Positions 20,842-40,550 of a stretch of 46,948 nucleotides of DNA are shown here, piece after piece. The notes under the pieces were generated by a model. The model was not told the DNA's origin, searched no databases, and was given only the letters and a program-made list of their open reading frames with translations. The first letter of the stretch is position 1. Every line of letters starts with the position of its first letter. The translations under genes and the position numbers were made by a program. The DNA comes from an uncultured Bacteroidia bacterium (GTDB taxonomy: Bacteria; Bacteroidota; Bacteroidia; Bacteroidales; UBA932). The stretch spans positions 1 through 46,948 of the forward strand of contig CADBFO010000019.1 of the NCBI GenBank assembly GCA_902794005.1, in the 5' to 3' direction.

Positions 20842-20906
20842 CTCTGCGCTTTTTGCGCAGAGGATTATCCGTAATTGGCTGGTTTTCAGCACCGTATCGG
20901 CCACCC
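20842..20906 (-). repeat. Hairpin-tail repeat family 1, copy A (degenerate)
   Basis: Arms CTCTGCGC/GCGCAGAG (20842-20849, 20855-20862) with loop TTTTT, then GATTAT and a weakly conserved tail reaching GATAC and GGTGGC right after the dapD stop when read on the minus strand. It separates dapA-dapD from GH20-asd. Confidence 0.7.
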
Positions 20907-20907
20907 C

Positions 20908-21684
20908 TTAACGAAGCAGGTCTTCCAGGTGGACGCTGCCGGCGGTCTTTTCGTCCCGGTATTTCACGATCACGGGGCAGTACAGGTGCACGCCGCTCTC
21001 CAGGGGCCTGCCATTCCGGATGATGGGCTTGGAGCCGCTCACCACCACGGCGTTCCTCGGGACAATGATGCGTCCGTCGGCATTGCGCTTGATGAATTCG
21101 CCGGTGGTGGAGTCGAAGATGGCGGTGGAGGAGGTGATGATGACGCCGGAGGCTATCACCGCGCCTTCCTGCACGACGGTGCCTTCGTAGATGCCGCAGT
21201 TGCCGCCCACGAAAGCGCCGTCCTCGATGATGGTGGGCAGGGCGCCGGCCGGTTCCAGCACGCCCCCGATCTGCGTAGAGGCCGATATGTGGATGTTCCG
21301 CCCCACCTGGGCGCAGGAGCCGATGGTAACGTGGCTGTCCACCATGGTGCCCTCTCCGACGTATGCGCCCACGTTCACGTATGCCGGAGGCATCACGATG
21401 CTGCCGGGAGCAAGGTACGCGCCGCGCCGGATGCTGGAGCCGCCGGGGACGATGCGAACGCCGTCCGCCGCCGTGAATTTCCGCACCGGGAAGGTGTCTT
21501 TGTCAAAGAAGGAAAACTGCCCCTCGGACATGTCCGTGATGGCACCCAGTTTGAAGCCGGCCAGAATCACTTCCTTCACCCATTTGTTCACTTTCCATTG
21601 GCCGTTCACTTTTTCCGCCACGCGGAGTTCTCCCTTTTCCAGGGCATCCAGCACTTTATTGAATTCTGCAAGGGTAATTTCCAT
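20908..21684 (-). CDS. dapD: Tetrahydrodipicolinate N-succinyltransferase family (DapD-like)
   Basis: 258 aa. A short helical N-terminus is followed by a left-handed beta-helix (about 90-215) of hexapeptide repeats: VNVGAYVGEGTMVDSHVTIG, CAQVGRNIHIS, then IIEDGAFVGGNCGIYEGTVV. ASTQIGGVLEP is typical of DapD. It transfers succinyl (or acetyl) to tetrahydrodipicolinate. It shares one base with the dapA stop (TGATG), so translation is coupled. Presence of an M20 gene nearby supports the succinylase variant of the lysine pathway. Confidence 0.93.
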   Translation of the reverse strand: MEITLAEFNKVLDALEKGELRVAEKVNGQWKVNKWVKEVILAGFKLGAITDMSEGQFSFFDKDTFPVRKFTAADGVRIVPGGSSIRRGAYLAPGSIVMPPAYVNVGAYVGEGTMVDSHVTIGSCAQVGRNIHISASTQIGGVLEPAGALPTIIEDGAFVGGNCGIYEGTVVQEGAVIASGVIITSSTAIFDSTTGEFIKRNADGRIIVPRNAVVVSGSKPIIRNGRPLESGVHLYCPVIVKYRDEKTAGSVHLEDLLR

Positions 21685-22556
21685 CAGAACAGGTCTTTAA
21701 GGGTTTGCTTGATCAATTCTTCCGTTGCCCGGGAGGCCGATACCAGGGGCAGGCGCAGGCGGTTTTCCATCAGGCCCAGCTCGGCCATGGCCGCCTTGGC
21801 CGGAATGGGATTGGGCTCCACGAAAAGGGCCTTGAACAGGGGTTTCAGGCGCTGCTCCATTCTGGCGGCCTCTTCCAACTTGCCCGCCTGGATGGCGTGC
21901 ACAAAATCCGCCATGGCCGACGGGAACACGTTGGAAGCCACGGAGACCACGCCGTCGGCCCCCTTCTGCATGAGGGCGAGGGTGTCTTCGTCGTTGCCGC
22001 TGAGGACGGAAAAGCCTTCGGGACGGCCTTCCAGGATGGCCTGGATCTGGTCCATCTTGCCGGAGGCCTCCTTGATGCCCACGATGTTGGGGATGTCCCG
22101 GGCCAGGGCCAGGGTGGTGTCGGCCTCGAGGTTGGAGCCGGTGCGGCCGGGGACGTTGTACAGGATAACGGGCTTGGGAGTGCTTGCGGCGATCGTCTTA
22201 AAGTATTGGTAAATACCTCTTTGCGGCGGCTTGTTATAGAAGGGGACAACCACCAGGAAGGCATCGGCATCCTGCAGCAGGCGCATATTGGCGAGGGTGG
22301 CGTCCACCGAGTTGGAGCCCACGCCGGCCACCACCGGTTTTCCGGCGGCGTGCTGCAAGGCCACTTCCAGCACCTGCAGTTTTTCCGACTCGCTGAGGGT
22401 GGGCGTTTCACCGGTGGTGCCCAGCGGCACCAAGAAATCCGTGCCGGCCGTCACCTGCCAGTCCACCGTAGCGGCAAAAGCTTCATAATCCACTTCGGTC
22501 CCCTTGAACGGAGTAAGCAGCGCCGTTCCGCAACCACTGAACTGTATCGTTTTCAT
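21684..22556 (-). CDS. dapA: 4-hydroxy-tetrahydrodipicolinate synthase
   Basis: 290 aa, standard length. Thr47-Thr48 in PLGTTGETPTL, Tyr133 and Arg138 in LYNVPGRTGSN, and the Schiff-base Lys162 in VGIKEASGKMDQ. It condenses pyruvate with aspartate semialdehyde, the committed step to diaminopimelate and lysine. It has its own promoter box (22574-22581) and is coupled to dapD. Confidence 0.97.
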   Translation of the reverse strand: MKTIQFSGCGTALLTPFKGTEVDYEAFAATVDWQVTAGTDFLVPLGTTGETPTLSESEKLQVLEVALQHAAGKPVVAGVGSNSVDATLANMRLLQDADAFLVVVPFYNKPPQRGIYQYFKTIAASTPKPVILYNVPGRTGSNLEADTTLALARDIPNIVGIKEASGKMDQIQAILEGRPEGFSVLSGNDEDTLALMQKGADGVVSVASNVFPSAMADFVHAIQAGKLEEAARMEQRLKPLFKALFVEPNPIPAKAAMAELGLMENRLRLPLVSASRATEELIKQTLKDLF

Positions 22557-22573
22557 ACGAATCTACATTTTTA

Positions 22574-22581
22574 CAAATGTA
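22574..22581 (-). promoter_or_regulatory. Promoter -7 box of dapA-dapD
   Basis: TACATTTG on the minus strand, 17 nt before the dapA ATG. The -33 box is unclear. Confidence 0.5.
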
Positions 22582-22636
22582 CAAAGAATTTCCGGATAAT
22601 ACACAGTGGCTGCTAATAAAATGATTTTCAGTGTAT

Positions 22637-22713
22637 TACGCATAATCCTCTGCGCAAAAAGCGCAGAGGATTATACATAAACAGCTATGTATCAAGCGAT
22701 TAGTGGCCACCGG
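22637..22713 (-). repeat. Hairpin-tail repeat family 1, copy B
   Basis: Perfect 14-bp arms ATAATCCTCTGCGC (22642-22655) and GCGCAGAGGATTAT (22661-22674) with loop AAAAA. The tail runs right and ends in GGCCACCGG; on the minus strand GGTGGCCACTAA encodes the last residues GGH and the stop of the TPR gene. It lies between the TPR gene and dapA. Confidence 0.85.
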
Positions 22714-23881
22714 ATTGCATGAATTCCTCGGCTTTCAGGGTGCTTATCCTTTCCTGGATGGAGGGAGCGCGGTCGTTTTGGGGGCCGGTCTCTTTCAAGT
22801 ACCGCTCGTAGCACTCTATCGCTTTCCGGTTTTGTTTCAGAAGTTCATAAAGATAGCCCATCTGCACAAAGGCCATCTTGTATTTGGGATTGAGCCGATA
22901 GGCTTCCCTGTAGTGATGCAGTGCCTGAGGCATGTCCTCCGGCCGATGGCTGAAACCCTGGGCATACATCCGGTGCAGTTGGAAAAGCATCATCTCGTCC
23001 GGCTGGCTCATCTCCCAAGCGCGGTCCACCCAAGGTTTCACCGCCTCGAAAGGAAGCATCAAATCCAAGCGGAGGGCTGCGATGTTATAGGCCAGGTTCA
23101 CATCGGAGGAATCGATTTGCCAGGCGGCGCGCAGTTCCTTGTCGGCCCGGTAGGCACGAGGCGTATGCCAGTAGCTCTGACCCAGATAATAGTGGATGGG
23201 ATAAGTGTCGTTACCCAGTTCCAGCTGGCGCTCGAAAAGGGTGGCGGCCGCGTCATATTCCCCTTTCCGATAATGGGCCAGGCCGCACAGCGGAGCCACT
23301 ACCGGGTTGTCCGGATCCTCCTGCAAATAACTGTCCGTGAGGGCGATGGCTTCATCGTAATCCTCCCGTCCCAGAAGGATATCGAAAACCTTGGAAACGA
23401 TGGTGGCGTTCTGCGGCTTCAGGGCCAGGGAGCGCCGATAATACCACAGGGCCGAATCGGCCTGTTCCAGCTGCTTGAAACCGTCTCCCACATAGCCCAG
23501 CACGGCGGGAATGGTGTCCAGCGCCAGGGCCTCCTTGCCGGCTTCCACAGCCTGCTGCCAGGCTTTGACACGATAGAAAATCTGCATTTTACGCAGTTTG
23601 AAAAGGAGGTTGCCGGGAGTACGCAGGGACAACATGTTGTACAGACCTGCGGCGTCTTCGTAGTTGCCGCTCTGAAAATGGCAGTCGGCCAGTTCGGAAA
23701 GCACCTCCACATCCATTCGCTCCGGGGTTACCAGCGTAGAAAGCAGGCCGATGGCTTCGTCCGTCCTGAGGACGCTGCGGAGGTATCGGCTTTGGGCAAT
23801 GAGGGAATCGCGATGAGTGGTCTGCGCACCCAACGGCACGCAGACCATCATCCACAGGACAAGAAGGAAGATCTTTTTCAT
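22700..23881 (-). CDS. Secreted TPR protein in a BlaI/BlaR1 operon
   Basis: 393 aa from MKKIFLLVLW with a signal peptide (about 1-19, ending PLGAQ). The rest consists of tandem tetratricopeptide-like helical pairs, for example YEDAAGLYNMLSLRTPGNL, QADSALWYYRRSLALKPQNA, YDAAATLFERQLELGNDTY and AIECYERYLKE. Such repeats mediate protein contacts; no enzymatic motif is seen. The start overlaps the blaR1 stop (ATGA), so it belongs to the blaI-blaR1 unit. The final residues SGGH and the stop come from repeat copy B. It presumably works in the periplasm with the BlaR1 sensor, which is inference. Confidence 0.8.
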   Translation of the reverse strand: MKKIFLLVLWMMVCVPLGAQTTHRDSLIAQSRYLRSVLRTDEAIGLLSTLVTPERMDVEVLSELADCHFQSGNYEDAAGLYNMLSLRTPGNLLFKLRKMQIFYRVKAWQQAVEAGKEALALDTIPAVLGYVGDGFKQLEQADSALWYYRRSLALKPQNATIVSKVFDILLGREDYDEAIALTDSYLQEDPDNPVVAPLCGLAHYRKGEYDAAATLFERQLELGNDTYPIHYYLGQSYWHTPRAYRADKELRAAWQIDSSDVNLAYNIAALRLDLMLPFEAVKPWVDRAWEMSQPDEMMLFQLHRMYAQGFSHRPEDMPQALHHYREAYRLNPKYKMAFVQMGYLYELLKQNRKAIECYERYLKETGPQNDRAPSIQERISTLKAEEFMQSGGH

Positions 23882-25137
23882 CGTAATTGGAAGATAACCG
23901 GGAAGACCATGGTCACCGGGACGGCCTCGCCTTCGGCATTGCGGCCCGGCTCCCATTTCGGGGAAGCTGTAACCACTTTCAAGGCCATCTCGTCCAAGTC
24001 TTGGCGGATGCCTCTGAGCACCTTGACATCCTTGACGGAGCCGTCCGTATCCACGGTAAAACTCATTATAATACGGCCTTGCACTTTGTCATTGATGGCC
24101 GTTTGGGGATACTTGAGTTGGCTGTTGACCCATTGGGAGAACTCATTGGCACTGCCACCGTTGAACGAAGGTTTCACTCCCACCATGGCAAAGGGGACGG
24201 CACCGGTCAACTCCTCTGCGCTTAGCTTTATGGCTTTTGCGGGAAGGCTCTCCAGCGCCTCGGACTCTTCTGCAGGGACAGGTGTTTCAGCGGTTTTCTT
24301 GGGATTGCAGGCGAACATAAAGGTCGCCAGCACGGGAATCAGGGCCAGATACGACCAGCGCATCCAACCGGCAGTTGTGGGTTTGAGCATCATGGCAATT
24401 CGATTTTTGAGTTTTGCGTGCTGGAAGCCGCTGGCCAGGGAGAAACGCTGTTCCCCCACGGCTTTTCGCACAAGAAGTAATTGATATTGAGTAGCATCGA
24501 TGCCTTTTTGAAGAACTCCCTCATCGGCCTGGTATTCGTGCAGGAGCCGAAGTTCTTCCCGGATAATCCACACCAGCGGATTCCACCAGAAAAGAAGTTG
24601 AATGGGGGAGAAAAGGAGCAGGTCCAGCGTATGTCTGTAGTGCACGTGCATCCGCTCATGGGTGAAGATGGCAGGGTTCTGCTCTAAGTCCTGCCGGCTC
24701 ATCACCACCGTTCGCCCCCAACTGAAAGAGCGCACGTTATTTTCCAGCAAAACCAGGGTACAATCTTCCAGAACGGTCTTTTTTCCGCGACGGATGAGCC
24801 CGTTCACCTTCCGGGCCGATACCAGGTACAGCCCCAAAGAACAGGCGGCTCCGCACACATAGAGGGCCAGCAGGATTTCCGGCCAGGGGAAAGGCTTGGG
24901 AGAAGTTACGGCCCTCTCCCACGCCACGCCCACCATGGAAACCTCCTGGGCGATACCGGCAGCCGTCACGGTTCTGAGCCGGATGACCGGCAGCAGCAGG
25001 CAAAGGTAACTGCCCGCCAGCAGGAGCAAGCGGTTCAGACCGAAGAACGTGGTCCGGCGCATCACGAGCAGGTAGAAGGCGTAGAACAGGCCCAGATAGA
25101 GCCCCGCACGCGCGATATATAAAAGGAACGGCGTCAT
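23878..25137 (-). CDS. M56 (BlaR1/MecR1-like) membrane metallopeptidase with TonB-type C-terminus
   Basis: 419 aa. N-terminal membrane helices (about 5-50 and 85-105), a zinc-peptidase motif HERMH at 160-164 with EADEG-like EYQADEG (about 201-207), a further helix near 262-280 and an extracytoplasmic tail. The tail (about 320-419) shows VQGRIIMSFTVDTDGSVKDV and PKWEPGRNAEG, typical of TonB C-terminal domains rather than a penicillin-binding sensor. It overlaps blaI and the TPR gene by 4 nt each. BlaR1-like proteins cleave the BlaI-type repressor on signal; the signal here is unlikely to be simply a beta-lactam, since no beta-lactamase or PBP is present. Confidence 0.88.
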   Translation of the reverse strand: MTPFLLYIARAGLYLGLFYAFYLLVMRRTTFFGLNRLLLLAGSYLCLLLPVIRLRTVTAAGIAQEVSMVGVAWERAVTSPKPFPWPEILLALYVCGAACSLGLYLVSARKVNGLIRRGKKTVLEDCTLVLLENNVRSFSWGRTVVMSRQDLEQNPAIFTHERMHVHYRHTLDLLLFSPIQLLFWWNPLVWIIREELRLLHEYQADEGVLQKGIDATQYQLLLVRKAVGEQRFSLASGFQHAKLKNRIAMMLKPTTAGWMRWSYLALIPVLATFMFACNPKKTAETPVPAEESEALESLPAKAIKLSAEELTGAVPFAMVGVKPSFNGGSANEFSQWVNSQLKYPQTAINDKVQGRIIMSFTVDTDGSVKDVKVLRGIRQDLDEMALKVVTASPKWEPGRNAEGEAVPVTMVFPVIFQLR

Positions 25138-25493: not shown

Positions 25494-25514
25494 ATGTTTT
25501 GGATGGTTCTGCTG

Positions 25515-25522
25515 CAAAGATA
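25515..25522 (-). promoter_or_regulatory. Promoter -7 box of the blaI operon
   Basis: TATCTTTG on the minus strand, 21 nt before the blaI ATG. The -33 region is occupied by the palindrome at 25539-25557. Confidence 0.6.
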
Positions 25523-25538
25523 CAACAATTTTTCTTAT

Positions 25539-25578
25539 CTCCTAATTTTTTTAGGAGTATTCCGTAGATTTTTAGGAG
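25539..25578 (-). promoter_or_regulatory. Candidate BlaI operator
   Basis: A palindrome CTCCTAA-TTTTT-TTAGGAG (25539-25557) covers the expected -33 region, and a further half-site TTAGGAG lies at 25572-25578, 21 bp from the previous one. Autoregulation by BlaI-type repressors through palindromes at their own promoter is known; this exact site is inferred. Confidence 0.5.
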
Positions 25579-25631
25579 CCTCTGAATGGCGCAGCTGGGT
25601 GGCTGGTATCTCCCTGACTATGAGAATATTA

Positions 25632-25706
25632 CGCATAATCCTCTGCGCAAAAAGCGCAGAGGATTATACATAAACGCATGTGTATCAGATAGTTGGCAGC
25701 CACCCG
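25632..25706 (-). repeat. Hairpin-tail repeat family 1, copy C
   Basis: Arms at 25635-25648 and 25654-25667 (perfect), loop AAAAA; the tail ends in GGCAGCCACCCGG. It lies between the receptor remnant and blaI. Next to it, CCGGGGCGGCCAGAGCAAG is directly repeated 43 bp apart (about 25704 and 25747). Confidence 0.85.
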
Positions 25707-25787
25707 GGGCGGCCAGAGCAAGTCGCCACAATCCGGAGCAAACCGGGGCGGCCAGAGCAAGCCACCACCACAGAGGCGGGAAGGACC

Positions 25788-26157
25788 TTACCAGGCCATA
25801 TCCCAGGCCACACGCCGGGCGCGCTGGCTCTGGGCGGCATTCATCTTGCCGAAGTTCCATTTGACGCCCAGGAGGACGTATCGGCCCATCACCAGGCGAT
25901 AGGTATCTTCTTCATAATTGGCGGTGACGGCATGGCTGCGGCCACGGGTCTGGTTCAGGATGTCAAAGGCCTTGAGGCTCAGGGTGAAAGCGCCGATGTT
26001 CCTGGACACTTCGGCGTTCCAGCGGAATTCCGGCCTGTCGTAGCCGGCGGCATAGCCCCGTCATGCGGTTCTGGAACATGCTGTCGTTCAAGATAAATAC
26101 CTGAGCATGAGCCTGCAGACACAGCAAGAGGAGGAAAAGGAGTATCAGTTTTTTCAT
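25788..26157 (-). pseudogene. Collapsed TonB-dependent/outer-membrane receptor gene
   Basis: From 26157 the frame gives a signal peptide (MKKLILLFLLLLCLQAHAQ) and VFILNDSMFQNRMTG. It then needs a frame change to continue as YAAGYDRPEFRWNAEVSRN, LKAFDILNQ and LVMGRYVLLGVKWNFGKMN, stopping at 25788. The second part is a typical C-terminal barrel end of large outer-membrane receptors. Most of the gene (normally 700-900 codons) is missing. Confidence 0.65.
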
Positions 26158-26213: not shown

Positions 26214-27227
26214 TCAACCGGCCTGGCCGAAGAGCCGGAGGTTTTCGAAGCCGGGACGGAGTTCGCCGGCCTCGATGCGGTGGATGATGGCGGTGACTTT
26301 TTCGTTCATCGGCGTAGGAAAACCAATCCTACGGCCATAGGCGGCAATGGCGCCGTTGATGGCATCGACCTCGGTCTTCTTGCCCTTTTCGATGTCCTGC
26401 AGCATGCTGGCCTTGAGTTTTGCGTGCTTTTTGATGGCGATGGGAAGGATCAGCAGCGAGAGGGCCTTCTTCACGGGCCCGTGGTAGTCCAGCAGTTTCA
26501 CGGCGTCCTTGCCCTGCACGGGCTCGATTTTGATGCCGCCTTTTTCGCACACGTCGATGCATTCCTTGATGAGGGCCAGCACCACTTTGCGGGAGGTCTT
26601 GTCGGCCGCCGCCTCGCCAAAGGTGCAGCCCAGCACCGTGCTCATGCCGGAAAAAGCGCTGTTGATGAGGAGTTTGCTCCAGCGGGTGCCCACGAAATTG
26701 GGCTCCACGGTCACGGGGCCCATCAGCTCCAGAAGGGCTTTCACCTGGTCCATATATTTGTGCGGCTTCCGGGCGGTGGTGCCCAGCGAGAAGGTAAGGC
26801 TGTCCGGCGAACTGGTGAGTTCGCACACCCCCGGGCCGATCATCGTCGCCCCCCAGGCCACCGTGCAGCCCAGCACCCGGTCTTCACCCACGATATCGGC
26901 AATTCCCTGCTCCGGAAGGCCGTTCTGCAGGGTGACGATGACACCGTCCGGAGCCAGATAGTCCTTGAGGAAAGTGACCACCTCGGCATTCTGCTGCTGC
27001 TTGGTGAGGAGAAAAATGATGTCATAGAGCCCGGTCATCTTGTCCGGAGTATAAGCGGTGACAGGCTGAATGAACTCCACTGTACCGGTGACATGGGCTC
27101 CCTGCTGCTGCAGGGCCTCCACATGCTTTACGTTGCGGTTGATGAGGTCGATCCTGCCTCCTTTGCGGGTAATATAGGCGCCCAGGATGGTTCCCAGGGA
27201 CCCTGCGCCGTAAATAGCGTTTCTCAT
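26214..27227 (-). CDS. panE: 2-dehydropantoate 2-reductase (ketopantoate reductase family)
   Basis: 337 aa. NADPH loop YGAGSLGTILGAY near the start, LLTKQQQN and LQNGLPEQ, then the catalytic Lys region GTRWSKLLINSAFSGMS and the C-terminal MLQDIEKGKKTEVDAINGAI. It reduces ketopantoate to pantoate for coenzyme A synthesis. Family members can act on other 2-oxo acids, so the substrate is not certain. A start nine codons upstream is possible; MRNAIYGAG is the natural one. It lies between repeat copy D and the receptor remnant. Confidence 0.85.
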   Translation of the reverse strand: MRNAIYGAGSLGTILGAYITRKGGRIDLINRNVKHVEALQQQGAHVTGTVEFIQPVTAYTPDKMTGLYDIIFLLTKQQQNAEVVTFLKDYLAPDGVIVTLQNGLPEQGIADIVGEDRVLGCTVAWGATMIGPGVCELTSSPDSLTFSLGTTARKPHKYMDQVKALLELMGPVTVEPNFVGTRWSKLLINSAFSGMSTVLGCTFGEAAADKTSRKVVLALIKECIDVCEKGGIKIEPVQGKDAVKLLDYHGPVKKALSLLILPIAIKKHAKLKASMLQDIEKGKKTEVDAINGAIAAYGRRIGFPTPMNEKVTAIIHRIEAGELRPGFENLRLFGQAG

Positions 27228-27261
27228 AGTGATTTCTATCTGTTTCTGTATCAATTACTTC

Positions 27262-27345
27262 TGTATAATCCTCTGCTCTTTTTGCGCAGAGGATTATATG
27301 TAAACAGCTGTGCTACAGCGGATTAACGGCCACCAGTTCGGCGGG
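27262..27345 (-). repeat. Hairpin-tail repeat family 1, copy D
   Basis: Arms ATAATCCTCTGC (27265 on) and GCAGAGGATTAT (to 27297) with one mismatch next to a loop that reads TTTTT, the complement of most copies, while the tail keeps the same direction. The tail includes GGCCACCAG, within the last codons of dapF. Confidence 0.8.
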
Positions 27346-28215
27346 GCCGATGAGGTAAACTTCGGTGAAACGGTCCTCCGGGCCAGGGTGGAAGTCCACT
27401 TGCAGCCAGTCGCCACGGCGGCATTGCAGCCGATAGGAGATGTCCGGTCCCGGCGCCCCGCCATTCCCGGCAGGCTCGTTCCCGCCATCCTCCCCGGCTT
27501 CACCGGGAATCGGCCCGGCAGCGGGAATGCCGGCTTTGAAAGCGGCCAGGGCCGACGCCGTGAGGCCGGTGCCGCAGGCAAGGGTTTCGCCTTCCACGCC
27601 TTTTTCGAAAGTGCGCACATGCAGGCCGTCGGCAGCCTGTGCCACGAAATTCACGTTGGCTCCTTCCGGCTGGAAGGCAGGGTCCCAGCGGAGCGGCTTG
27701 GCATCGGCCTCCATGTCCAAGGGTGCCACATCGGCCACAAACTTGACGAAGTGCCGGGTGCCGGTGTTCAGAAAGTAGCCGTCCTTCATAGGCATAATCC
27801 CGTGAACATCAATCATTTTCAGCCGAACCGTCCATTTTTCTCCGGGAATCTCCTGCGACAAAATCTCCGCAGTGTGTTCGCCGTCGGGGGCGAGGAAACG
27901 GTAGATGGCACCATCGGCCGGACGGATGCCGAGGTAATCGGCAAATGCCACGATGCATCGACCGCCGTTGCCGCACATCATGCCGCCGGACCCGTCGGGA
28001 TTGTAGAATTCCATCACGAAATCCGGAGAAGCGGGCCGGTCGGAGACGGGGCGGGTCAGAATCATGAGCCCGTCCGTATGGTACGCGCGGCACAATGCGC
28101 CGATTCTGTCCGCCTCCCGGAAGGGGTCCATGCTCCCCCGTCGGCCGTCCAGCACGATAAAATCGTTCCCCGCTCCGGAGAACTTAAAAACCCGTGGCAC
28201 GTAACTTTCTGTCAT
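27313..28215 (-). CDS. dapF: Diaminopimelate epimerase
   Basis: 300 aa. Catalytic Cys81 in MMCGNGGRC and Cys214 in ETLACGTGLTA; the N-terminus has FKFSGAGNDFIVLD. It converts LL- to meso-diaminopimelate for lysine and peptidoglycan. A Gly/Pro/Glu-rich insertion (about 231-257) precedes the last strands. The C-terminal VAVNPL and stop fall within repeat copy D, so the normal C-terminus may have been replaced. It is preceded by repeat copy E and the aminotransferase gene. Confidence 0.95.
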   Translation of the reverse strand: MTESYVPRVFKFSGAGNDFIVLDGRRGSMDPFREADRIGALCRAYHTDGLMILTRPVSDRPASPDFVMEFYNPDGSGGMMCGNGGRCIVAFADYLGIRPADGAIYRFLAPDGEHTAEILSQEIPGEKWTVRLKMIDVHGIMPMKDGYFLNTGTRHFVKFVADVAPLDMEADAKPLRWDPAFQPEGANVNFVAQAADGLHVRTFEKGVEGETLACGTGLTASALAAFKAGIPAAGPIPGEAGEDGGNEPAGNGGAPGPDISYRLQCRRGDWLQVDFHPGPEDRFTEVYLIGPAELVAVNPL

Positions 28216-28226
28216 TTAATCTCTTA

Positions 28227-28305
28227 TGTATAATTCTCTGCGCAAAAAGTGCAGAGGATTTTGTGTAAACAACTGTATTTTAGGCACTTATCTGCCACCC
28301 TCGGC
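28227..28305 (-). repeat. Hairpin-tail repeat family 1, copy E
   Basis: Hairpin at about 28230-28262 (ATAATTCTCTGCGC, loop AAAAA, GTGCAGAGGATT), slightly degenerate. The tail contains the stop of the aminotransferase: on the minus strand GAGGGTGGCAGATAA encodes EGGR and stop. It sits 15 nt upstream of the dapF ATG. Confidence 0.75.
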
Positions 28306-29526
28306 AGCGGCAGCGGCAGCGTCAGCGGTGGCGTCGGCGGTGGCGTCGGCGGCAGCGGCGGCCTCGCGCACCAGGGCTGCCAGGAGTTTGATGCCGGGCT
28401 CCATCTTGGCTTCATCGACGAAGGAGAAGTTCAAGCGCATGGTGTTGCGATGGCTGCCGTCCGTGTAGAAGAAGGAGCCGGCCACGTATGCCACGCCGGC
28501 AGAAAGGGCCTTGTCGTACAACGCCACCGTATCCAGGGCCGGCGGCAGGGTGAGCCAGAGGAACAGGCCCCCTTCCGGATCGGTCCAGGATACGCCCGCA
28601 GGCATATATTTTTCCAGCAGGGAGACCATGAGGTCCCGCCTCCGCCGATATTCCGCGATGCTCTTCTGCAAATTGGCATCCAGCATCCCCGAGCCCATGA
28701 ATTCCGCCGCCAGGTATTGGTCAAAAACCGGCGGGCAAAGGTCCAGGCACTGTTTGCAGATATAAATCTGTTCCAGCAGCTCTTCCGGGCCGATGATCCA
28801 TCCCAGCCGGAACCCGGGCGCAAAAATCTTGGAAAAGCTGCCCAGCTGCAGCGTGCGTTCCGGGGCCAGCTCCCGGATGGTGGTCACCGGCTCTCCGCTG
28901 TAGCGTAGTTCACGGTACGGGCTGTCCTCCACGATGAGGCAGTCCAGCTCCCGGGCAATGCGCACAATCTCCTGCCGTTCCTGAAGGGTCATCGTCTTCC
29001 CCGACGGATTGTTGAAGTCCGGAATCACGTAGATGAATTTGACGGGAGATTCTTCGCTACGCTCAGAATGACAGGAAGCATGCTCGGAATGACGGGCCGA
29101 AACGGCGGAAATCTCCTGCACCCGGGCCCGGTAGGCCCTGAAACTTTGCAGGGCGCCCAGATAAACGGGATTTTCGGCCAGCACCACGTCGCCGGGGTCC
29201 AGGAACACCCGCGAGCACACGTCGATCCCCTGCTGGGAAGAGGTGGTGATCTGCACCTGCGAAACGGGAACGCCGTAGCGCTTCGCAATCACCTCGCGAA
29301 GCTCCGGAACACCCTGGGTGGCACCATATTGCAAGGCCTTGGTTCCGTATCGGCCCAGCACTTTTTCTGCCAGGCCGGGGATGTCGGCCAGGGGAAAGGT
29401 GACGGCAGCGGGATAGCCGCCGGCAAAGGAACAAATGGCCGAAAGGTCCACCTTGCGGAAAATTTCCCGCACGGGCGAACGCAGGAACGAGGGCACATCG
29501 GCCGAAAAGTATTTGCTGTAATCCAT
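28288..29526 (-). CDS. Class I/II PLP aminotransferase (LysN/MocR-like), candidate DapC
   Basis: 412 aa. PLP-binding Lys233 in LGSFSKIFAPGFRLGW, Asn in DFNNPSGKT, Asp/Tyr in VEDSPYREL and the C-terminal Arg in NTMRLNFSF. It resembles 2-aminoadipate-type aminotransferases. Between dapF and murA, with dapD and an M20 gene in the same run, it is a candidate for the missing N-succinyl-LL-DAP aminotransferase; that is inference. Residues about 143-160 ([17 protein letters not shown]) derive from a dispersed repeat, and the last 24 residues are an Ala/Asp/Thr low-complexity tail ending EGGR, made by a GC-rich microsatellite and repeat copy E. ATG directly follows the murA stop. Confidence 0.82.
   Translation of the reverse strand: MDYSKYFSADVPSFLRSPVREIFRKVDLSAICSFAGGYPAAVTFPLADIPGLAEKVLGRYGTKALQYGATQGVPELREVIAKRYGVPVSQVQITTSSQQGIDVCSRVFLDPGDVVLAENPVYLGALQSFRAYRARVQEISAVSARHSEHASCHSERSEESPVKFIYVIPDFNNPSGKTMTLQERQEIVRIARELDCLIVEDSPYRELRYSGEPVTTIRELAPERTLQLGSFSKIFAPGFRLGWIIGPEELLEQIYICKQCLDLCPPVFDQYLAAEFMGSGMLDANLQKSIAEYRRRRDLMVSLLEKYMPAGVSWTDPEGGLFLWLTLPPALDTVALYDKALSAGVAYVAGSFFYTDGSHRNTMRLNFSFVDEAKMEPGIKLLAALVREAAAAADATADATADAAAAAAEGGR
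29046..29097. repeat. Dispersed repeat family 2 copy inside the aminotransferase
   Basis: AGATTCTTCGCTACGCTCAG followed by AATGACAGG and a half copy CTCGGAATGACGG. Read on the minus strand it encodes [15 protein letters not shown], replacing a surface-loop segment that normally leads into the strand KFIYVIP. Confidence 0.75.
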
Positions 29527-33830: not shown

Positions 33831-33836
33831 CGGCGG

Positions 33837-34895
33837 TCACACGTGCTCCACCTCGGGGTGCAGCGTGATACCGTATTTCTGCGCAATGGCCTGGATGACT
33901 TGGTTCTCCAGGCCAATAATGTCTTGGGGAGAAGCTGTGCCTGAGGCGTTTACCGGCTGCCCGGGATACACTTGCGCACCGCCGTTGCGGGCGCCCTTGA
34001 AACCACACTGGTCGATCATCCATGCGGCCGGGACTTTGATGCTGTCTCCCACCTCGAAGTGAGGGACGGCGTAGTCGGGGCCATTGTCCTCGCGGGCGAT
34101 GGCCACGATACGCTCGAAGTGCCCGCGGGAGATGACGGGATTGCAGAAAAAGCTGCCCGCGCTGCCCAGCTCTTCCACGGCCGGAAGTTTGGCCTGCCGG
34201 ATGCCGATGATGGCCTCCCGGATGAGCTGCGGGGTGAGGGATTCTTCGCTGCGCTCAGAATGACAGGAGAGAGAAGCAGAATGACAGGAAAGGGCTTTGC
34301 GGACGCCACCGTAGTCCAGTTTGGGCCGGGGTGTGCGGCTGAGGCGGTAAGTGACGGCGGTGATGATGAATCGGCCTTTCCACTCCGTCTTGAAACGGGA
34401 GGTGCGGTAGCCGTACCGGCAGTCGGCCGGGTCGATGTCCACGAACTGTCCGGTGGTGCGGTCATAGGCCCGGATGCCGGCGATGATGTCTTTGGCCTCC
34501 ACGCCGTAGGCGCCGATGTTCTGCACGGCCGATGCGCCCACCTCGCCGGGAATGAGCGACAGGTTTTCCGGCCCCCAGAGGCCCTCGGAGGCCGCCCAGG
34601 CGCAGAAATCGTCGAAGACAACGCCGGCGCCGAGGGTGACAGATTCTTCGCTTCGCTCAGAATGACAGGAATGGGAGGAATGACAGATGGCCACATGAAG
34701 GACTGTGCCGGGGAAGTCTTTGGTAAAGAGGAGGTTGGAGCCGCCGCCCATCACCAGCACCGGCCGGGGGAGGGCGCTCCAGTCCAGGGCCGCCAGGTCG
34801 GCCTCTTCCGTCACTTCCACAAACAGGGCGCACTTCACCCGCATCCGGAAGGTGTTCCGGGCGGAAAGGTCATAATATGGGGTCTTTGATATCAC
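33837..34895 (-). CDS. murB: UDP-N-acetylenolpyruvoylglucosamine reductase with two repeat-derived insertions
   Basis: 352 aa. FAD-binding [10 protein letters not shown] (about 48-57), [19 protein letters not shown] (115-133), catalytic Ser248 in [10 protein letters not shown] and the C-terminal HPEVEHV. It reduces enolpyruvyl-UDP-GlcNAc to UDP-MurNAc. Residues 71-85 ([15 protein letters not shown]) and 204-219 ([16 protein letters not shown]) are encoded by family 2 repeats and fall in loops of the FAD and substrate domains. The reading frame and all key motifs are intact, so it is probably functional. The start is GTG, overlapping the aspS stop (GTGA). Confidence 0.92.
34235..34290. repeat. 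Dispersed repeat family 2 copy inside murB (C-terminal half)
   Basis: GATTCTTCGCTGCGCTCAG then AATGACAGG and a half copy AGCAGAATGACAGG. Encodes [16 protein letters not shown] on the minus strand, between a strand and the helix TPQLIREAI. Confidence 0.8.
34640..34692. repeat. Dispersed repeat family 2 copy inside murB (N-terminal half)
   Basis: AGATTCTTCGCTTCGCTCAG then AATGACAGG and GGAGGAATGACAG. Encodes [15 protein letters not shown] on the minus strand, just before [12 protein letters not shown]. Confidence 0.8.
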
Positions 34896-36667
34896 TGCTG
34901 CGCCGGGGGGGTCAGGGCAATCTGAAGCTCGTCCAGCTGGGTCTGGTCAATCTCGGACGGGGAGTCGATCATCACATCGCGGCCCTGGTTGTTCTTGGGG
35001 AAGGCGATGTAGTCGCGGATGGTGTCCTGCCCGCCCATGAGGGCGCACACGCGGTCGAAGCCGAAGGCCAGGCCCCCGTGCGGCGGAGCACCGAACTTGA
35101 AGGCGTTGATGATGAACCCGAACTTGTATTCCGCCTCTTCCGGACCAATCCCCAGCACCTCGAACATACGCTTCTGCATGTCGGCGTTGTGGATACGGAC
35201 GGAACCGCCGCCCAGCTCGTTGCCGTTCAGGACGAAGTCGTAGGCATTGGCGCAGACGCGCTCCAGGTCTTCTTTCTTGTCGCTGTAGAACCACTGCTCA
35301 TGCTCCGGCTTGGGCGCGGTGAAGGGGTGGTGCATGGCGTAGAAACGCCGGGTTTCGTCGTCCCATTCCAGAAGCGGGAAGTCCACAATCCACAGCGGAG
35401 CAAACTCCTTGGGGTTGCGAAGGCCCAGGCGGCCGCCCATTTCCAGACGGAGGACGCCCAGCATGGTCTGCACTTTGCGCTTGGACGGGCCGCTCATCAC
35501 CAGCATGAGGTCGCCGGGCCGGGCGCCGGCCTTTTCCGCCAGTTTGGCCAGGTCGTCGGCCCCGTAGAATTTGTCGATGGAGGATTTGTAGGTTCCGTCG
35601 GCATTGACTTTCACGTATATGAGGCCTTTGGCGCCCACCTGCGGGCGTTTCACCCATTCGGTGAGCTCGTCAATCTGCTTGCGGGTGTATTCGGCCGCGC
35701 CGGGGACGCAGATGGCGCCGATGTAGGCGGCATCGTCCAGGACGCTGAAGCCCTTGCCTTTGGCGGCCTCGGTGATTTCGTGGATGGTCATGCCGAAACG
35801 CACGTCCGGCTTGTCGGAGCCGTAGTTGTCCATAGCGTCGTACCAGCTCATGCGGAGCATGGGGTTGGGAATGTCCACGTCCAGCACGTTCTTGAAGATG
35901 GTGCGCATCATGCCTTCGAACATGCCCAGGACGTCTTCCTGCTCCACGAAGGACATTTCGCAGTCGATCTGGGTGAATTCGGGCTGACGGTCGGCGCGGA
36001 GGTCTTCGTCACGGAAGCAGCGGACAATCTGGAAGTAGCGGTCGTAACCGGCCACCATCAGCAGCTGCTTGAAGGTCTGGGGGCTCTGCGGCAGGGCGTA
36101 GAACTGACCGGGGTTCATGCGGGAAGGAACCACGAAGTCGCGGGCGCCTTCCGGGGTGCTCTTGATGAGGTACGGGGTCTCTATCTCCATGAAGCCGTTG
36201 GCGTCCAGGTAGTTGCGCACTTCGTGGGCCACGCGGTGCCTCAGGGCCAGGGCGCGCTGCAGCGGGCCGCGGCGCAGGTCCAGGTAGCGGTATTTGGCGC
36301 GCAGGTCCTCGCCGCCGTCACTCTCCTCCTCGATGGTGAAGGGCGGGATTGCGCTCCTGTTCAGAATGTTGATGGCCGATACCCGGATCTCGATGTCGCC
36401 CGTAGGCATTTTGGCGTTCTTGGCTTGACGTTCCACGACCTCACCCTTGATCTGGATCACGAATTCGCGGCCCAGGGAGGTGGCGGTTTCCACAAGGTCC
36501 GCAGGAGCATCGGCCTCCACGACCAGCTGGGTGATGCCGTAACGGTCGCGAAGGTCCACGAACGTCATACCGCCCAGTTTACGGGCTTTCTGAACCCATC
36601 CGGCCAGGGTCACCTGCTGTCCCTTGTTCTCAATGCGGAGCTCTCCGCAAGTGTGTGTTCTGTACAT
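34892..36667 (-). CDS. aspS: Aspartyl-tRNA synthetase (bacterial type)
   Basis: 591 aa. OB-fold anticodon-binding domain (about 1-110; [20 protein letters not shown]), class II motif 2 [18 protein letters not shown], a GAD insertion (about 290-410) and motif 3 [16 protein letters not shown]. It charges tRNA-Asp. It overlaps murB by 4 nt, so the two are coupled. The ATG at 36667 follows the promoter box at 36707-36714 by about 40 nt. Confidence 0.97.
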
Positions 36668-36706
36668 GATTTATGCTGTTTTTGTCTATTGCGTTGTAAC
36701 AATCTA

Positions 36707-36714
36707 CAAAAATA
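36707..36714 (-). promoter_or_regulatory. Promoter -7 box of aspS-murB
   Basis: TATTTTTG on the minus strand; no clear TTTG at 19-21 bp. Confidence 0.45.
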
Positions 36715-36833
36715 GCAAAAAAAGCCGAAATACGATGCTTTGCGCCCGGGGCGCGCCGGGAGATGCACCATCCCCGCCATCGCATCCGCTTCGGAACCGG
36801 ACTTTTACCGACATTTCAAGAAGGATAATTTAT

Positions 36834-36841
36834 TATCTTTG
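36834..36841 (+). promoter_or_regulatory. Promoter -7 box of the HAD-rsmA operon
   Basis: TATCTTTG lies only four bases before the ATG at 36846, so the transcript would begin at or next to the start codon (leaderless). Confidence 0.5.
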
Positions 36842-36845
36842 CAGC

Positions 36846-37955
36846 ATGAAACATTTTGTACTGATTGTTTGCATTGCGCTGGCGGTAGTGTCGTGCCGGG
36901 CCCCCAAAACCCTCATCGAAGGGTCCTGGGACCCGGCCGTACGGGAGTCGCTGAACACCCTCCTCGCCTCGGCGGAACCGGGCAGTTATGCCGTCTTTGA
37001 TTTTGACAAGACCTCCATCGTCCACGACGTGACCCAGGCTCTCTGGGTATATCAGATTGAGCATCTGCGCTATGCCGATGCCCCCAAGCACCATTTTCTG
37101 GACGGCATTCCGGACCCGTCCCGCCTCATTCCCGGAACAGAGGTTACGTTTGCCAAAATGGGCGAAATGCTTCAGATAGAATACAATTTGCTGCGCAATT
37201 TCCTGGATCACGGGCAAAGCTGGAACAAGATTTACGAGATGGTCCTGTACCAGGATTTCCGCGCCCGCATGTTCTCCCTGCTGGTGGGCATGGACGAAGC
37301 CTTCGGCGAAGAAGTCTCCTACCTCTGGATGCCGGGCCTGCTGGCCGGTTATACGGAAAAGGAAGCCCGCGAAGTGGTGCACGATGCCATTGTAGAGCAT
37401 CTGGGGGCCGATAAGCTGGCCGTCGAGGAGTGGCGCTCCAAGGACGGGAAATGGGGCGGCATGGTGGAACGCGGAATCTACTTCTCCCCGGAGATGAAAG
37501 ACCTTTTCCATTGCCTGAAAGCCAACAAGATTGAGGCTTACGTATGCTCCGCTTCCCTGGAGCTCATCGTGGAAGTGCTGGCCTGCGATCCGGAAATCGG
37601 CGCAGGGCTTCCGCCGGAGCAGGTTTTCGGCCTTCGCTTTGTTCCTTCGGAGCCGCTGGAAGCCCGGTATGACAGATCCTATGTGCAGCCCATTGGCCCG
37701 GGAAAAGTAACTTGTATCCAAACGTTTATGGCCCCTTCGCACGGGGGCCGCGGACCTGTCCTCGTGGGCGGCGATTCCAACGGTGACGTTCCCATGCTCA
37801 GCGCTTTTGAAGACATGCAGCGCGGCCTCATTATCGATGTGGGCCGCCGGGCCGATTCCGCCATCGGCCAGCTTGTCCATTCCGGCGACGGCCGTTATCT
37901 GGTGCAGCCGGCTTTTGCCAAGGCCGACGCTGCCGTGGAAGGAGGAGGAATCTAG
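36846..37955 (+). CDS. HAD-superfamily phosphatase lipoprotein (phosphoserine phosphatase-like)
   Basis: 369 aa. Lipoprotein signal with lipobox VVSC (Cys17). HAD motif I FDFDKTS (51-57; the usual second Asp is present), motif II region YVCSAS and motif III/IV GGDSNGDVPML. It should be an envelope-anchored phosphohydrolase; the substrate is not evident, with phosphoserine or phosphocholine-type monoesters plausible. The last codons (AVEGGGI) contain GGAGGAGGAA, a strong Shine-Dalgarno for rsmA, which starts just after the TAG. Confidence 0.82.
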   Translation: MKHFVLIVCIALAVVSCRAPKTLIEGSWDPAVRESLNTLLASAEPGSYAVFDFDKTSIVHDVTQALWVYQIEHLRYADAPKHHFLDGIPDPSRLIPGTEVTFAKMGEMLQIEYNLLRNFLDHGQSWNKIYEMVLYQDFRARMFSLLVGMDEAFGEEVSYLWMPGLLAGYTEKEAREVVHDAIVEHLGADKLAVEEWRSKDGKWGGMVERGIYFSPEMKDLFHCLKANKIEAYVCSASLELIVEVLACDPEIGAGLPPEQVFGLRFVPSEPLEARYDRSYVQPIGPGKVTCIQTFMAPSHGGRGPVLVGGDSNGDVPMLSAFEDMQRGLIIDVGRRADSAIGQLVHSGDGRYLVQPAFAKADAAVEGGGI

Positions 37956-37956
37956 C

Positions 37957-38865
37957 ATGGAAGTTCGCGCCAAAAAGGCCCTCGGCCAGCATTTTCTCAC
38001 CGACCAGAAGGTGGCCCGCGCCATCGTCGATGCCTTGGAACCTTTCCCGACAAAGCCTTCGCTTCGCTCGAAGGCGCCCGGGGGCGCCCGGCCGTGCCCG
38101 GGTCTTTTGCAGAAAGACGGAAAGAGCCTTGAAGCCACAGGGGGGGCGGGTGAATCCTATTCCCCCGTATTGGAAGTCGGCCCCGGCATGGGGGTGCTTA
38201 CGCAGTATCTGCTGGAGCGCGGCGACATCGACCTCCGGCTTGTGGAAATTGACTCGGAGAGCGTGGAATACCTTCTCACCCACTTCCAGGGCATGCAGGG
38301 CCGGCTCATGGAGGCCGATTTCCTCACGCTCCGCCTGGAGAAAATCTTCGACGGGGATTTCGCCGTCATCGGCAATTTCCCCTACAACATCTCCTCGCAG
38401 ATCTTTTTCAAAGTGCTGGATTACAAGGACCGTATCCCCGTCGTGGTGGGCATGGTCCAAAAAGAGGTGGCCGAGCGCATCGCCTGTCCGCCCGGTTCCA
38501 AAACCTACGGCATCCTGAGCGTGCTGCTGCAAGCCTGGTACGATATCGAGTACCTGTTCACCGTGGGGTCCGGCTGCTTTGCCCCGCCGCCCAAGGTGGA
38601 GAGTGCCGTCATCCGTCTGCGGCGGAACGCTCGTGAGTCCCTGGGCTGTGACGAGGCTCTGTTCAAGACGGTGGTGAAAACGGCTTTCGGCCAGCGCCGG
38701 AAAATGATGCGGAACCCCCTGAAGCCCCTCGCCCGCGCCAAGGCCGACCGCCTGGGCTGGTCCGAGGATGAGCTGGCCGCCTTCCTGGCCCGGGACGTCT
38801 TCTCCCTTCGGCCGGAACGGCTCGGTGTGGAGGACTTCATCGCCCTCACCAATCTCCTGGCTTAA
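37957..38865 (+). CDS. rsmA: 16S rRNA dimethyladenosine transferase with a loop insertion
   Basis: 302 aa. N-terminal VRAKKALGQHFLTD, SAM motif I VLEVGPGMGVLTQYL (about 71-85), motif IV VIGNFPYNISSQI and FAPPPKVESAVIRL near the C-terminal domain. It dimethylates two adjacent adenines in helix 45 of 16S rRNA. Compared with other RsmA proteins, about 40 residues (30-69; FPTKPSLRSKAPGGARP...GESYS) are inserted between the first helix and motif I. Start ATG 37957 has a very good Shine-Dalgarno (37938-37947), unusual here. Upstream frame extension overlaps the HAD gene and is rejected. Confidence 0.94.
   Translation: MEVRAKKALGQHFLTDQKVARAIVDALEPFPTKPSLRSKAPGGARPCPGLLQKDGKSLEATGGAGESYSPVLEVGPGMGVLTQYLLERGDIDLRLVEIDSESVEYLLTHFQGMQGRLMEADFLTLRLEKIFDGDFAVIGNFPYNISSQIFFKVLDYKDRIPVVVGMVQKEVAERIACPPGSKTYGILSVLLQAWYDIEYLFTVGSGCFAPPPKVESAVIRLRRNARESLGCDEALFKTVVKTAFGQRRKMMRNPLKPLARAKADRLGWSEDELAAFLARDVFSLRPERLGVEDFIALTNLLA
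38044..38163 (+). repeat. Inserted segment within rsmA
   Basis: About 120 bp not present in typical rsmA genes. It contains AAAGCCTTCGCTTCGCTCG, related in style to the family 2 core, and a palindrome GGGCGCC / GGCGCCC near 38078-38092. The frame is preserved. Confidence 0.5.
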
Positions 38866-38920
38866 CCCCTTGCTTTCTGGTTTTACCCAGCGCATCCTGG
38901 TTTCATGATTTCCAGGCGTG

Positions 38921-39111
38921 CCTTGCCTGTCGGTTTCATGATCCACGGGCGCGCCTTGCCGGTTTCACCCACTGCCTCCTGGGCTCACCCAGCCTGCCGA
39001 CCGTGCCTTGCCTGTCGGTTTCATGATCCACGGGTGCGCCTTGCCGGTTTCACCCACTGCCCCCTGGGCTCACCCAGCCTGCAGACCGTGCCTTGCCTGT
39101 CGGTCTCACCC
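38921..39111. repeat. 85-bp tandem repeat
   Basis: CCTTGCCTGTCGGTTTCATG recurs at 38921, 39006 and (truncated) 39091, an exact 85-bp period with two full units. Within a unit the motif GGTTTCA/GGCTCAC recurs irregularly and continues to about 39180. Confidence 0.8.
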
Positions 39112-39477
39112 CTTGCCTCCTGGTCTCACACCCGTGCTTCCTGGTTTCATCCCTTGCCCCCGGTCTCATGATCCACGGGGGCTTTAAACTGCTTGGGCGA
39201 TGTCCAAGGTATCTGCGGGGCAACGGCAGGCATTTACGGGCCCTTTCACGGAGCCCGAAAAATGCCTGTCCGTAGCCGACACGCCTGCTTATGCGTGGCG
39301 GCGGTGCCAGGCAGGCCAGGTGGCCGCCGGACTGCTTCCTTTTGGAAAAACCTCATCGGAAAGTCCTAAGGCTGAACCTTCGGGACAGAAACGAAGCCAT
39401 TACTTTCCGCAGGGTTCATAAGCTAGACCTTTAGAAAAAGGTAGTGGCACGTAATTCATTGTGTAGCAAGATTTTAT

Positions 39478-39552
39478 GCATAATCCTCTGCGCAAAAAGC
39501 GCAGAGGATTATATACAACACGTTGACTATCAATTACTTCATGGCCACCAGA
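39478..39552. repeat. Hairpin-tail repeat family 1, copy F
   Basis: Perfect arms at 39480-39493 and 39499-39512, loop AAAAA; the tail contains TTGACTATCAATTACTT and ends GGCCACCAG at about 39551. Not next to a recognised gene. Confidence 0.85.
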
Positions 39553-39741
39553 CAACACCGAGGGGGTACCTGACCAAAGGGAGACCAGTCGAAGGGCCAC
39601 CTGATCGAAGAGCCGAACAGAACAGCTGTCTAGTCCTGATGTAAGTTTACCGAAGTTGAACAGTAAGTAGTTAGGACGTAGAAGTCCTGATATCGGTTTA
39701 CATTGATGTCGCGAGGATACAATATTTTCGCGGCATTTTTA

Positions 39742-39961
39742 TCACGGCACCGCCGCCGCTCGATAAGCAGGAGCGGCGGCTCCAACACGGCCGGCTCCGG
39801 TGGGCTCCGGGCAAGGGCCCTCCTCCCCGGCCGGTTGTTGCCGGTCTTGCCTGAGGGTCCAATGCAGCCTGGCCTGCATGAGGACAGCAGGGATGGCAAG
39901 CAAGTAGCTGAGACAGAGATACTTACGCATAATCCTCTGCGCTTTTTGCGCAGAGGATTAT
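39742..39961. repeat. Long direct repeat, copy 1, ending in family 1 hairpin G
   Basis: About 177 bp from TCACGGCACCGCCG to GAGACAGAG, followed by the hairpin, matches 40291-40518 with only four scattered substitutions, at an offset of 549 bp. It includes a perfect 10-bp inverted repeat GCCGCCGCTC/GAGCGGCGGC (39752-39780). Confidence 0.85.
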
Positions 39962-40000
39962 TGACAAACGGTTGACTATCAGTTGCTTGGCTGCCACCCG
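39926..40000. repeat. Hairpin-tail repeat family 1, copy G (inverted loop)
   Basis: Arms 39929-39942 and 39948-39961; the loop is TTTTT, the reverse complement of most copies, although the tail (TTGACTATCAGTTGCTTGG, GCCACCCG) runs in the usual direction. Confidence 0.85.
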
Positions 40001-40113
40001 TGCCTCTTTTTATAGCAGCGGTGTGCACGTAATAGGGCGTTTTGGTACAGGAGGGGCCGAAAAACGTGGCGGCGCAGACGGCGTGGTAACCTCAGAGGGC
40101 TGTATTGCGGCCA

Positions 40114-40290
40114 CGTTGACACCTGGAGGGGGGCAGGGGGGCGTTTTTCTGTCAACGTAGCAAGGCTTTTCGCTGAGTCGGGCCATTTTGCTGCCGCGTT
40201 GACACTTGGAGTGGCGCCGGGGGCCGTTTTCCCGTCAACGTAGCAAGGCTTTTCGCTGAGTCGGGCCATTTTGCTGCCGCGTTGATATTT
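40114..40290. repeat. 83-bp tandem repeat with internal inverted repeat
   Basis: Units begin at CGTTGAC at 40114, 40197 and 40280 (the last partial). Each full unit holds CGTTGAC...GTCAACG, so it could form a hairpin, and then GTAGCAAGGCTTTTCGCTG. Confidence 0.8.
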
Positions 40291-40518
40291 TCACGGCACC
40301 GCCGACGCTCGATAAGCAGGAGCGGCGGCTACAACACGGCCGGCTCCGGTGGGCTCCGGGCAAGGGCCCTCCTCCCCGGCCGGTTGTTGCCGGTCTTGCC
40401 TGAGGGTCCAATGCAGCCTGGCCTGCATGGGGACAGCAGGGATGGCAAACAAGTAGCTGAGACAGAGCCGTTTACGCATAATCCTCTGCGCAAAAAGCGC
40501 AGAGGATTATGCGTAAAC
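40291..40518. repeat. Long direct repeat, copy 2, ending in family 1 hairpin H
   Basis: Second copy of the segment at 39742. The six bases just before the hairpin core differ (CCGTTT versus ATACTT), and this change extends the H stem. Confidence 0.85.
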
Positions 40519-40550
40519 AACTATGTGTCAGGCGGTTGGCGATCACCAAC
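40470..40550. repeat. Hairpin-tail repeat family 1, copy H (longest stem)
   Basis: Perfect 22-bp arms (40470-40491 and 40497-40518), GTTTACGCATAATCC... on the left, loop AAAAA. The tail has ACTATGTGTCAGGCGGTTGG and the variant end GATCACC. This copy best shows the full palindrome. Confidence 0.9.

Follow-up and report, generated by a model that had tools for sequence, protein, structure and literature searches.

The window analysed here, a stretch of 46,948 nucleotides from the genome of an uncultured rumen Bacteroidales bacterium (contig CADBFO010000019.1; the whole genome, 2.06 Mb, is referred to below as G000), holds eight copies, A to H, of a dispersed imperfect palindrome of 109 nt. This repeat is very probably a REPIN-like element, i.e., two inverted halves resembling repetitive extragenic palindromes (REPs) around a hairpin, belonging to a REP-associated tyrosine transposase (RAYT) of the Y1/HUH type encoded on C15 of the same genome. 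We base this assignment on the anatomy of the element, the transposase, the arrangement of copies on its flanks and the coevolution of the two, the architecture itself being unusual.

An earlier note on this DNA had described eight hairpin copies with arms ATAATCCTCTGCGC/GCGCAGAGGATTAT and a 5-nt loop, which is what the window contains (the arms being changed in some copies), and a tail always found on the same side. Both sides of the central hairpin are tailed, so the element has neither strand nor orientation and the one-sided reading fails. The order is the tag GGTGGC, the arm motif YAAnnnnYTGAnnnTCARnnnnTTR and the central hairpin AATCCTCTGCGC-A5-GCGCAGAGGATT, after which comes the mirror image. 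A search of the whole genome, suggested in the same note, lists 81 copies, of which the eight in the window are a part; C9:65990 and C42:13 are probably one copy seen at two contig ends. Both halves follow one consensus, which for the 79 untruncated copies reads GGTGGC NNN TAA NNNN CTGA TAN TCAG NNNN TTACGTAT / AATCCTCTGCGC AAAAA GCGCAGAGGATT / mirror, about 109 nt in all. Extraction of the copies was ungapped, the conserved parts lying at equal offsets in nearly all of them. The tag conforms to [GC]TG[GA][CT] in 151 of the 158 halves, and no part of the element is as uniform in this genome as its central hairpin (stem CTCTG in 158/158 halves). At up to three mismatches, the window has 24 matches to the arm where 3.4 were expected, and the whole hairpin is matched 78 times per strand genome-wide (0 for the reversed control). 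All window copies but E were predicted to fold stably (z -3.2 to -11); copy E reached only z -1.8. Rfam gave no match in the window at the gathering score. In a scan of genome contigs that possibly did not include the genome of the window, the exact hairpin AATCCTCTGCGC-N5-GCGCAGAGGATT appeared only in two rumen Bacteroidales metagenome-assembled genomes (MAGs), the sister MAG RGIG3283 and RUG487 (G062).

A Y1_Tnp search of G000 returned two genes, one on C15 and another on C6. The C15 gene sits between two copies of the element (C15:28223 and C15:29965), and its final codons and stop (GGT GAC GAA TAA) are supplied by an element copy. The protein has 306 aa counted from the probable start, M52 in an open reading frame (ORF) of 357 aa. 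It matches Pfam Y1_Tnp barely above the cut-off and NCBIfam REP_Tyr_transpos, the family of REP-associated tyrosine transposases, at 2e-12, under the curated cut-off. Its predicted structure (pLDDT 89.8) has as top PDB match 4er8 (E 6e-6), in which a REP-associated transposase is bound to a REP hairpin. For the structure model, the PHROGs scan and the transposase alignment (A3) we have used the sequence from C51 (307 residues), one residue before the likely start. Among the 15 aligned transposases HxH and Y-x-x-NN are invariant (H59, H61 and Y119); the former is DHxH in 13 and NHxH in two, and NNP is found in 13. The RAYT genes of RGIG3283 and RUG487 had been suspected to be broken. This was rejected, since the suspect stops precede the true start, corresponding to M52 in the query, and neither gene has its frame interrupted. 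Just upstream of the C15 gene, and within the same pair of flanking elements, lies a companion gene encoding 215 aa. Its homologues are 57-80% identical within the close clade, where alone it was found, tblastn being blank at the more distant RAYT loci. The protein had no match in Pfam, NCBIfam or PHROGs and its structure model is poor (pLDDT 46.7).

The same association is seen in related genomes. A first survey of 61 genomes with strict element filters detected elements in 10, all of them in the same genus (g1). Every one of these also has a RAYT relative, compared with 14 of the 27 element-negative genomes of the genus (p 0.006). Element and RAYT occur together in four further genomes of g1; the RAYT match of G065 is weak (3e-7). 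Counts of elements in these two surveys cover both strands, and the candidates scored were capped per genome (63 and 150). When 295 genomes of the order were searched for the RAYT, 30 matched besides the window's own, all weakly (best 5e-11), and therefore close relatives of the RAYT appear confined to the genus in these samples. In the first search of relatives (E up to 1), a match to the R1 element lay no more than 0.3 kb from the RAYT gene at 15 of 24 loci, and nine had matches on both sides; with E limited to 0.01 the figure was 10 of 24. The match on the far side may be as distant as 0.75 kb, with the companion gene in between, or 1.1 kb at L110. R1 matches also adjoin the RAYT genes of RGIG3283, RUG487, G063, G064 and G066, and none was found beside that of G065. 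RAYT genes flanked by cognate copies are present in G000, G005, G019, G061, G062 and others.

A way to see which parts of the element are tied to the transposase is to compare the copies that flank RAYT genes. We have aligned 31 such elements from 21 loci (alignment A2, which omits seven more hits from these loci: L103:1402, L104:2436, L104:2570, L153:1267, L153:3121, L154:1397 and L194:4544). Over the outer tag stem and the central stem, 81.1% of cells were paired compared with 50.5% after shuffling, double changes numbered 259 (90 when shuffled) and covariation was 0.744 (0.216 when shuffled, and at most 0.229 in slid controls), values that none of the 500 shuffles reached. No covariation was found in the arms of these elements, whether taken alone or cross-paired, and the arm motif was kept in spite of differing tags and stems. 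For the 12 RAYTs compared (of the 21 loci), identity between tags followed identity between RAYTs (Mantel r 0.41, p 0.008), as did that between central stems (r 0.52, p 0.003). Neither the arm motif (r 0.07) nor the variable arm (r -0.06) tracked RAYT identity. Since tag and stem track the RAYT and the arm motif does not, the former look like the part involved in lineage-specific recognition and the latter like a shared part.

The position of the copies with respect to genes was established with a simple hexamer-score gene caller run on the fetched stretches, which placed 75 of the 81; five of the others are at contig edges and one is inside a gene call. Placed copies were convergent in 27 cases, tandem in 43 and divergent in five, while free intergenic bases are distributed as 14, 66 and 20%, respectively (convergent enrichment p 1e-6; divergent depletion p 1e-3). 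Among the gene ends facing a copy, those within -25 to +10 nt of it were 40 out of 97 in the case of 3' ends and 8 out of 53 in that of 5' ends. Twenty stop codons lie inside 19 of the 81 copies, nine of them at the conserved TAA; the stops of neighbouring genes occupy seven different element columns. Three start codons are likewise inside copies. Of the 76 copies clear of contig edges, 75 are outside called genes or at their edge. The picture in G005 is comparable, with 48 of its 58 copies placed as 20 convergent, 25 tandem and three divergent, and seven stops inside copies. The proposal of the earlier note, a portable gene-end cassette, holds in part, as regards the convergent enrichment, the divergent depletion and the stops supplied by some copies. 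Gene-end placement and stop-codon supply have been reported for ordinary REPs, in the part of PMC3733652 that is available, and are already known REP habits.

Regarding transcript ends, none of 158 readings in G000 had TTTT in the 12 nt that follow the central stem. Within 12 nt of the outer end it was present in 19 of 158 (12%), compared with 4% of random 12-mers, mostly coding. The transcript-end reading of the earlier note, and with it a role in termination, is therefore unsupported.

Comparison with the sister MAG indicates that sites can be old. Its loci were picked by the exact hairpin, and absences are visible only within them; conservation of the core stem was left unused because the loci had been chosen by an exact stem match. 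G000 and RGIG3283 share 65 colinear pairs of copies, 34 of which pass the flank filter, 26 on both flanks. In the latter 26 the difference is 0.43 over the variable arm columns and 0.16 over the tag and arm motif. For non-orthologous pairs the variable columns give 0.69, and therefore the copies share descent (the difference of the 20-nt flanks, 0.42, is inflated by indels). Orthologous tags are scarcely closer than those of random pairs (0.18).

Further away, the tag and stem differ, also at shared positions. In G000 the tag is GTGG in 115 of 158 halves. In G005 it is CTGG in 102 of 116 halves and GTGG in five, the stem is CTCGG in 110 halves and CTCTG in five, and five copies are hybrid; other lineages have different tags again. 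Fifteen pairs between G000 and G005 pass the flank filter, three on both flanks, and their variable columns differ at 0.62 (0.70 for random pairs). The end of dapF, where copy D lies, is built by an element in four species, with three types of tag and stem: G000 and RGIG3283 have one type, G005 and G064 each have their own, and the arms can be aligned by eye. RUG487 is a more extreme case. In the 39 of its 40 matches that were read there is no consensus tag and no covariation in the outer stem, and it is the arms that form covarying hairpins (z 4.3-8.2 for nine arm pairs), something ruled out for G000 and RGIG3283, where arm covariation is lacking. For the 14 sites with both flanks in common between G000 and RUG487, G000 has a tag in 27 of 28 halves and RUG487 in 5 of 28; paired arm cells number 73 of 196 and 138 of 196, respectively. 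Many of the RUG487 loci (L196-L228) have near-perfect arm hairpins that differ in sequence. Such perfection could come from selection or from a copying error that perfects palindromes.

Gene-end copies that bear the tag, the stem and even the type of fold of the local lineage raise the possibility that resident copies are retooled in place throughout the genome, a proposal that we consider tentative and slightly lean against. Such retooling would include stem changes that are compensated and hybrids converted in one half, and its cause would be either the RAYT rewriting its resident targets or selection on copies with a role at gene ends to stay RAYT substrates.

A number of observations weigh against a REPIN-like element with a RAYT of its own. 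The element is not a canonical REP with GT[AG]G and a short hairpin, and the tags of other lineages are not GTRG. Among the 15 transposases no tryptophan is invariant between HxH and the tyrosine, where the available text of PMC6006769 puts a WQ motif. The second Y1 gene of G000 has no adjoining R1 element, and 9 of the 24 RAYT loci of the first search lacked an R1 match. The 14 element-negative genomes with a RAYT relative count in the same direction, although a laxer scan locates the element beside the RAYT in several of these strict-filter "negatives", e.g., G004. One of five measures of pairing in A2, a count of the pairs in which any double change occurs, was 26 compared with 24.1 and was reached by 50 of 500 shuffles. 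Besides, the model used to collect those elements scores pairing in all the stems, which brings some bias towards pairing; the bias was equal for the arms, and these show no covariation. Spread by insertion, proposed in the earlier note, is plausible because the element belongs to a RAYT-like system. The orthologous site without a copy envisaged there was not found, no pair of clean filled and empty sites being available, and the sites that could be compared with the nearest relative were mostly shared. Of the apparent empty sites one is unclear; the other, that of copy A, is only partly lost in RGIG3283, which retains the right part, ATG included (read by eye). Finally, the variable arm columns of RUG487 are not significantly more alike at the 14 shared sites than at random ones (0.620 and 0.638, p 0.16); change there may therefore be gradual, or a replacement, or a repeated insertion at favoured places.

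The repeat might instead be a functional mRNA 3'-end element, a terminator or stabiliser kept by host selection with the RAYT as a merely historical source. We regard this as unlikely. Placement at gene ends, the stable folds of most window copies, the lower divergence of tag and arm motif than of variable columns in the 26 RGIG3283 pairs and the somewhat commoner T-runs just outside the element would agree with it. However, the central stem has no T-run in any reading, nor do 88% of the outer ends, the fold of copy E is weak, and ordinary REPs are placed alike, so that tolerance could suffice (as far as the accessible part of PMC3733652 goes). Moreover, tracking of the RAYT by tag and stem is not required of a host terminator. 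That same tracking, together with RAYT genes flanked by elements of their own lineage, makes it very improbable that the repeat is a miniature inverted-repeat transposable element (MITE) mobilised by an ordinary DDE transposase and unrelated to the RAYT, for which the terminal inverted repeats GGTGGC/GCCACC and the dispersed copies would speak (the transposases searched for here being those of the Y1 family). MITEs of the ERIC/NEMIS type, 70-300 bp in length, are also short imperfect intergenic palindromes, but the element described here is tied to a Y1 transposase lineage by lineage. Their class is named in the available part of PMC3733652. Even harder to credit is a family of translated C-terminal peptides like the Rickettsia palindromic elements. 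One frame is mostly open (V-A-x-K/N-x-L), but its stops are not clearly below what column composition predicts (left 14 against 13.3, right 7 against 11.9, standard deviation 3.0 in both), on which ground we rejected it. In addition, host stops are found at seven different columns, and just one of the 76 copies off contig edges is inside a called gene.

The REPIN-like assignment finds its closest parallels in the REPIN/RAYT systems of Pseudomonas fluorescens SBW25 and Stenotrophomonas. As described in the available parts of PMC3116915, PMC2817692 and PMC3733652, these share with the present one the inverted palindromic doublet, the many intergenic copies, copies on either side of the transposase gene, coevolution of RAYT and REP, positions near gene 3' ends and supply of stop codons. 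The differences are the length of 109 nt, a central hairpin that is uniform in G000 and variable among lineages, a fixed arm motif, outer tags that pair with each other and, in RUG487, three separate hairpins with the tag mostly absent. Parts of this picture have been reported, according to the text accessible in each paper: different REP classes adjoin orthologous RAYTs of related strains (PMC3686654), RAYT and REP coevolve at RAYT-flanking copies (PMC2817692, PMC3686654) and REPIN spacers are compensatory (PMC3116915). For Bacteroidetes, the portion of PMC6006769 at hand describes "atypical secondary structures" that flank RAYTs and also have copies at other places. These belong to TnpA-REP subclass 2.6 (RAYT group 5), of this phylum; subclass 2.4 has "double foot" REPs, and the signature motifs of the subclasses are NHxH, WQ and YIHxNP or YIxNNP. 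The phylum, the NNP two residues past the conserved tyrosine in 13 of 15, the flanking structures copied elsewhere and GT[AG]G at one end with C[TC]AC at the other, which fits most G000 tags, agree with subclasses 2.6 and 2.4 as presented there. The lack of an invariant W, the lineage-variable tags and the restriction of close relatives to one genus in our samples do not; the comparison with the "atypical" structures of subclass 2.6 is with their description in the text alone. In the literature searched, which took in few subscription papers, neither this architecture nor coordinated change at fixed dispersed sites was found described.

Within the window (Table 1), copies A to E are at the junctions given in the earlier note, although a short ORF called at 25788-26009 separates copy C from panE, and the stop of the upstream gene is inside the element in B, D and E, as stated there. 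At copy A, the dapD stop (20908-20910) lies 1 nt beyond the element, and the ORF of the GH20 gene begins at an ATG (20806-20808) in its right arm. The site of copy D is also occupied in RGIG3283, G005 and G064. Copies F to H are together in one gap of 2.3 kb between convergent called genes at 38865 and 41162, and the two halves of the duplication that holds G and H are 88% alike. Pfam supports the neighbouring EPSP-synthase family (murA-like), aminotransferase, DAP epimerase, PanE/ApbA, penicillinase repressor, BlaR1 peptidase M56, TPR, DHDPS, DapD-type N-succinyltransferase and GH20 genes. The gap of copies F to H also contains a tandem array of four AGGCAAGCCGACGGCAAGGC-rich units, each about 80 nt long (40817-41131), and two further tandem duplications at 38917-39086 and 40097-40262 (85 nt at 96% and 83 nt at 86%). 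Scattered outside the palindromic element is another dispersed family of repeats, consisting of GATTCTTCGCTTCGCTCAGAATGACAGG and the inverse sequence.

Table 1. Features of the window and of the transposase loci (positions are those of the window unless a locus is named).
Feature	Location	Strand	Remarks
Copy A	20798..20906	no strand	hairpin 20836-20868; between dapD and GH20 gene
Copy B	22604..22712	no strand	hairpin 22642-22674; holds TPR gene stop 22700-22702; next gene dapA
Copy C	25597..25705	no strand	hairpin 25635-25667; between panE and blaI
Copy D	27227..27335	no strand	hairpin 27265-27297; holds last codons and stop of dapF, 27313-27315
Copy E	28192..28300	no strand	hairpin 28230-28262; holds aminotransferase gene stop 28288-28290
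Copy F	39442..39550	no strand	hairpin 39480-39512; repeat-rich gap between convergent genes
Copy G	39891..39999	no strand	hairpin 39929-39961; same gap as F, within 260-nt duplication
Copy H	40440..40548	no strand	hairpin 40478-40510; same gap as F, in second copy of 260-nt duplication
GATTCTTCGCTTCGCTCAGAATGACAGG repeat family	854-913, 5179-5263, 17823-17871, 29048-29096, 34240-34288, 34642-34690, 45739-45879		in the window
Second Y1 gene	L067:880-1752 (minus strand), C6 of G000		290 aa; weak NCBIfam RAYT match
Companion gene	L068:1986-2633 (minus strand), C15 of G000		215 aa; just upstream of RAYT, within flanking element pair

Taking the element as REPIN-like, the RAYT would bind its folded single strand through tag and stem, cut beside the tag and occasionally copy the element into DNA exposed by replication. 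Insertions beside stop codons would persist because they do least harm, and some may supply a new stop. Resident copies would stay matched to the resident RAYT for long periods, through selection for a shared function or through conversion driven by the RAYT. In the available text of PMC8049555 RAYTs are described as domesticated transposases whose exact function is unknown. The present data provide a defined REPIN-like architecture for uncultured rumen Bacteroidales, beyond the "atypical secondary structures" of PMC6006769 as far as its text goes. What is at stake is whether dispersed REPINs are passive debris or working sites kept matched to the protein, and if resident copies at gene ends change their recognition sequence alongside the transposase, this question would become testable.

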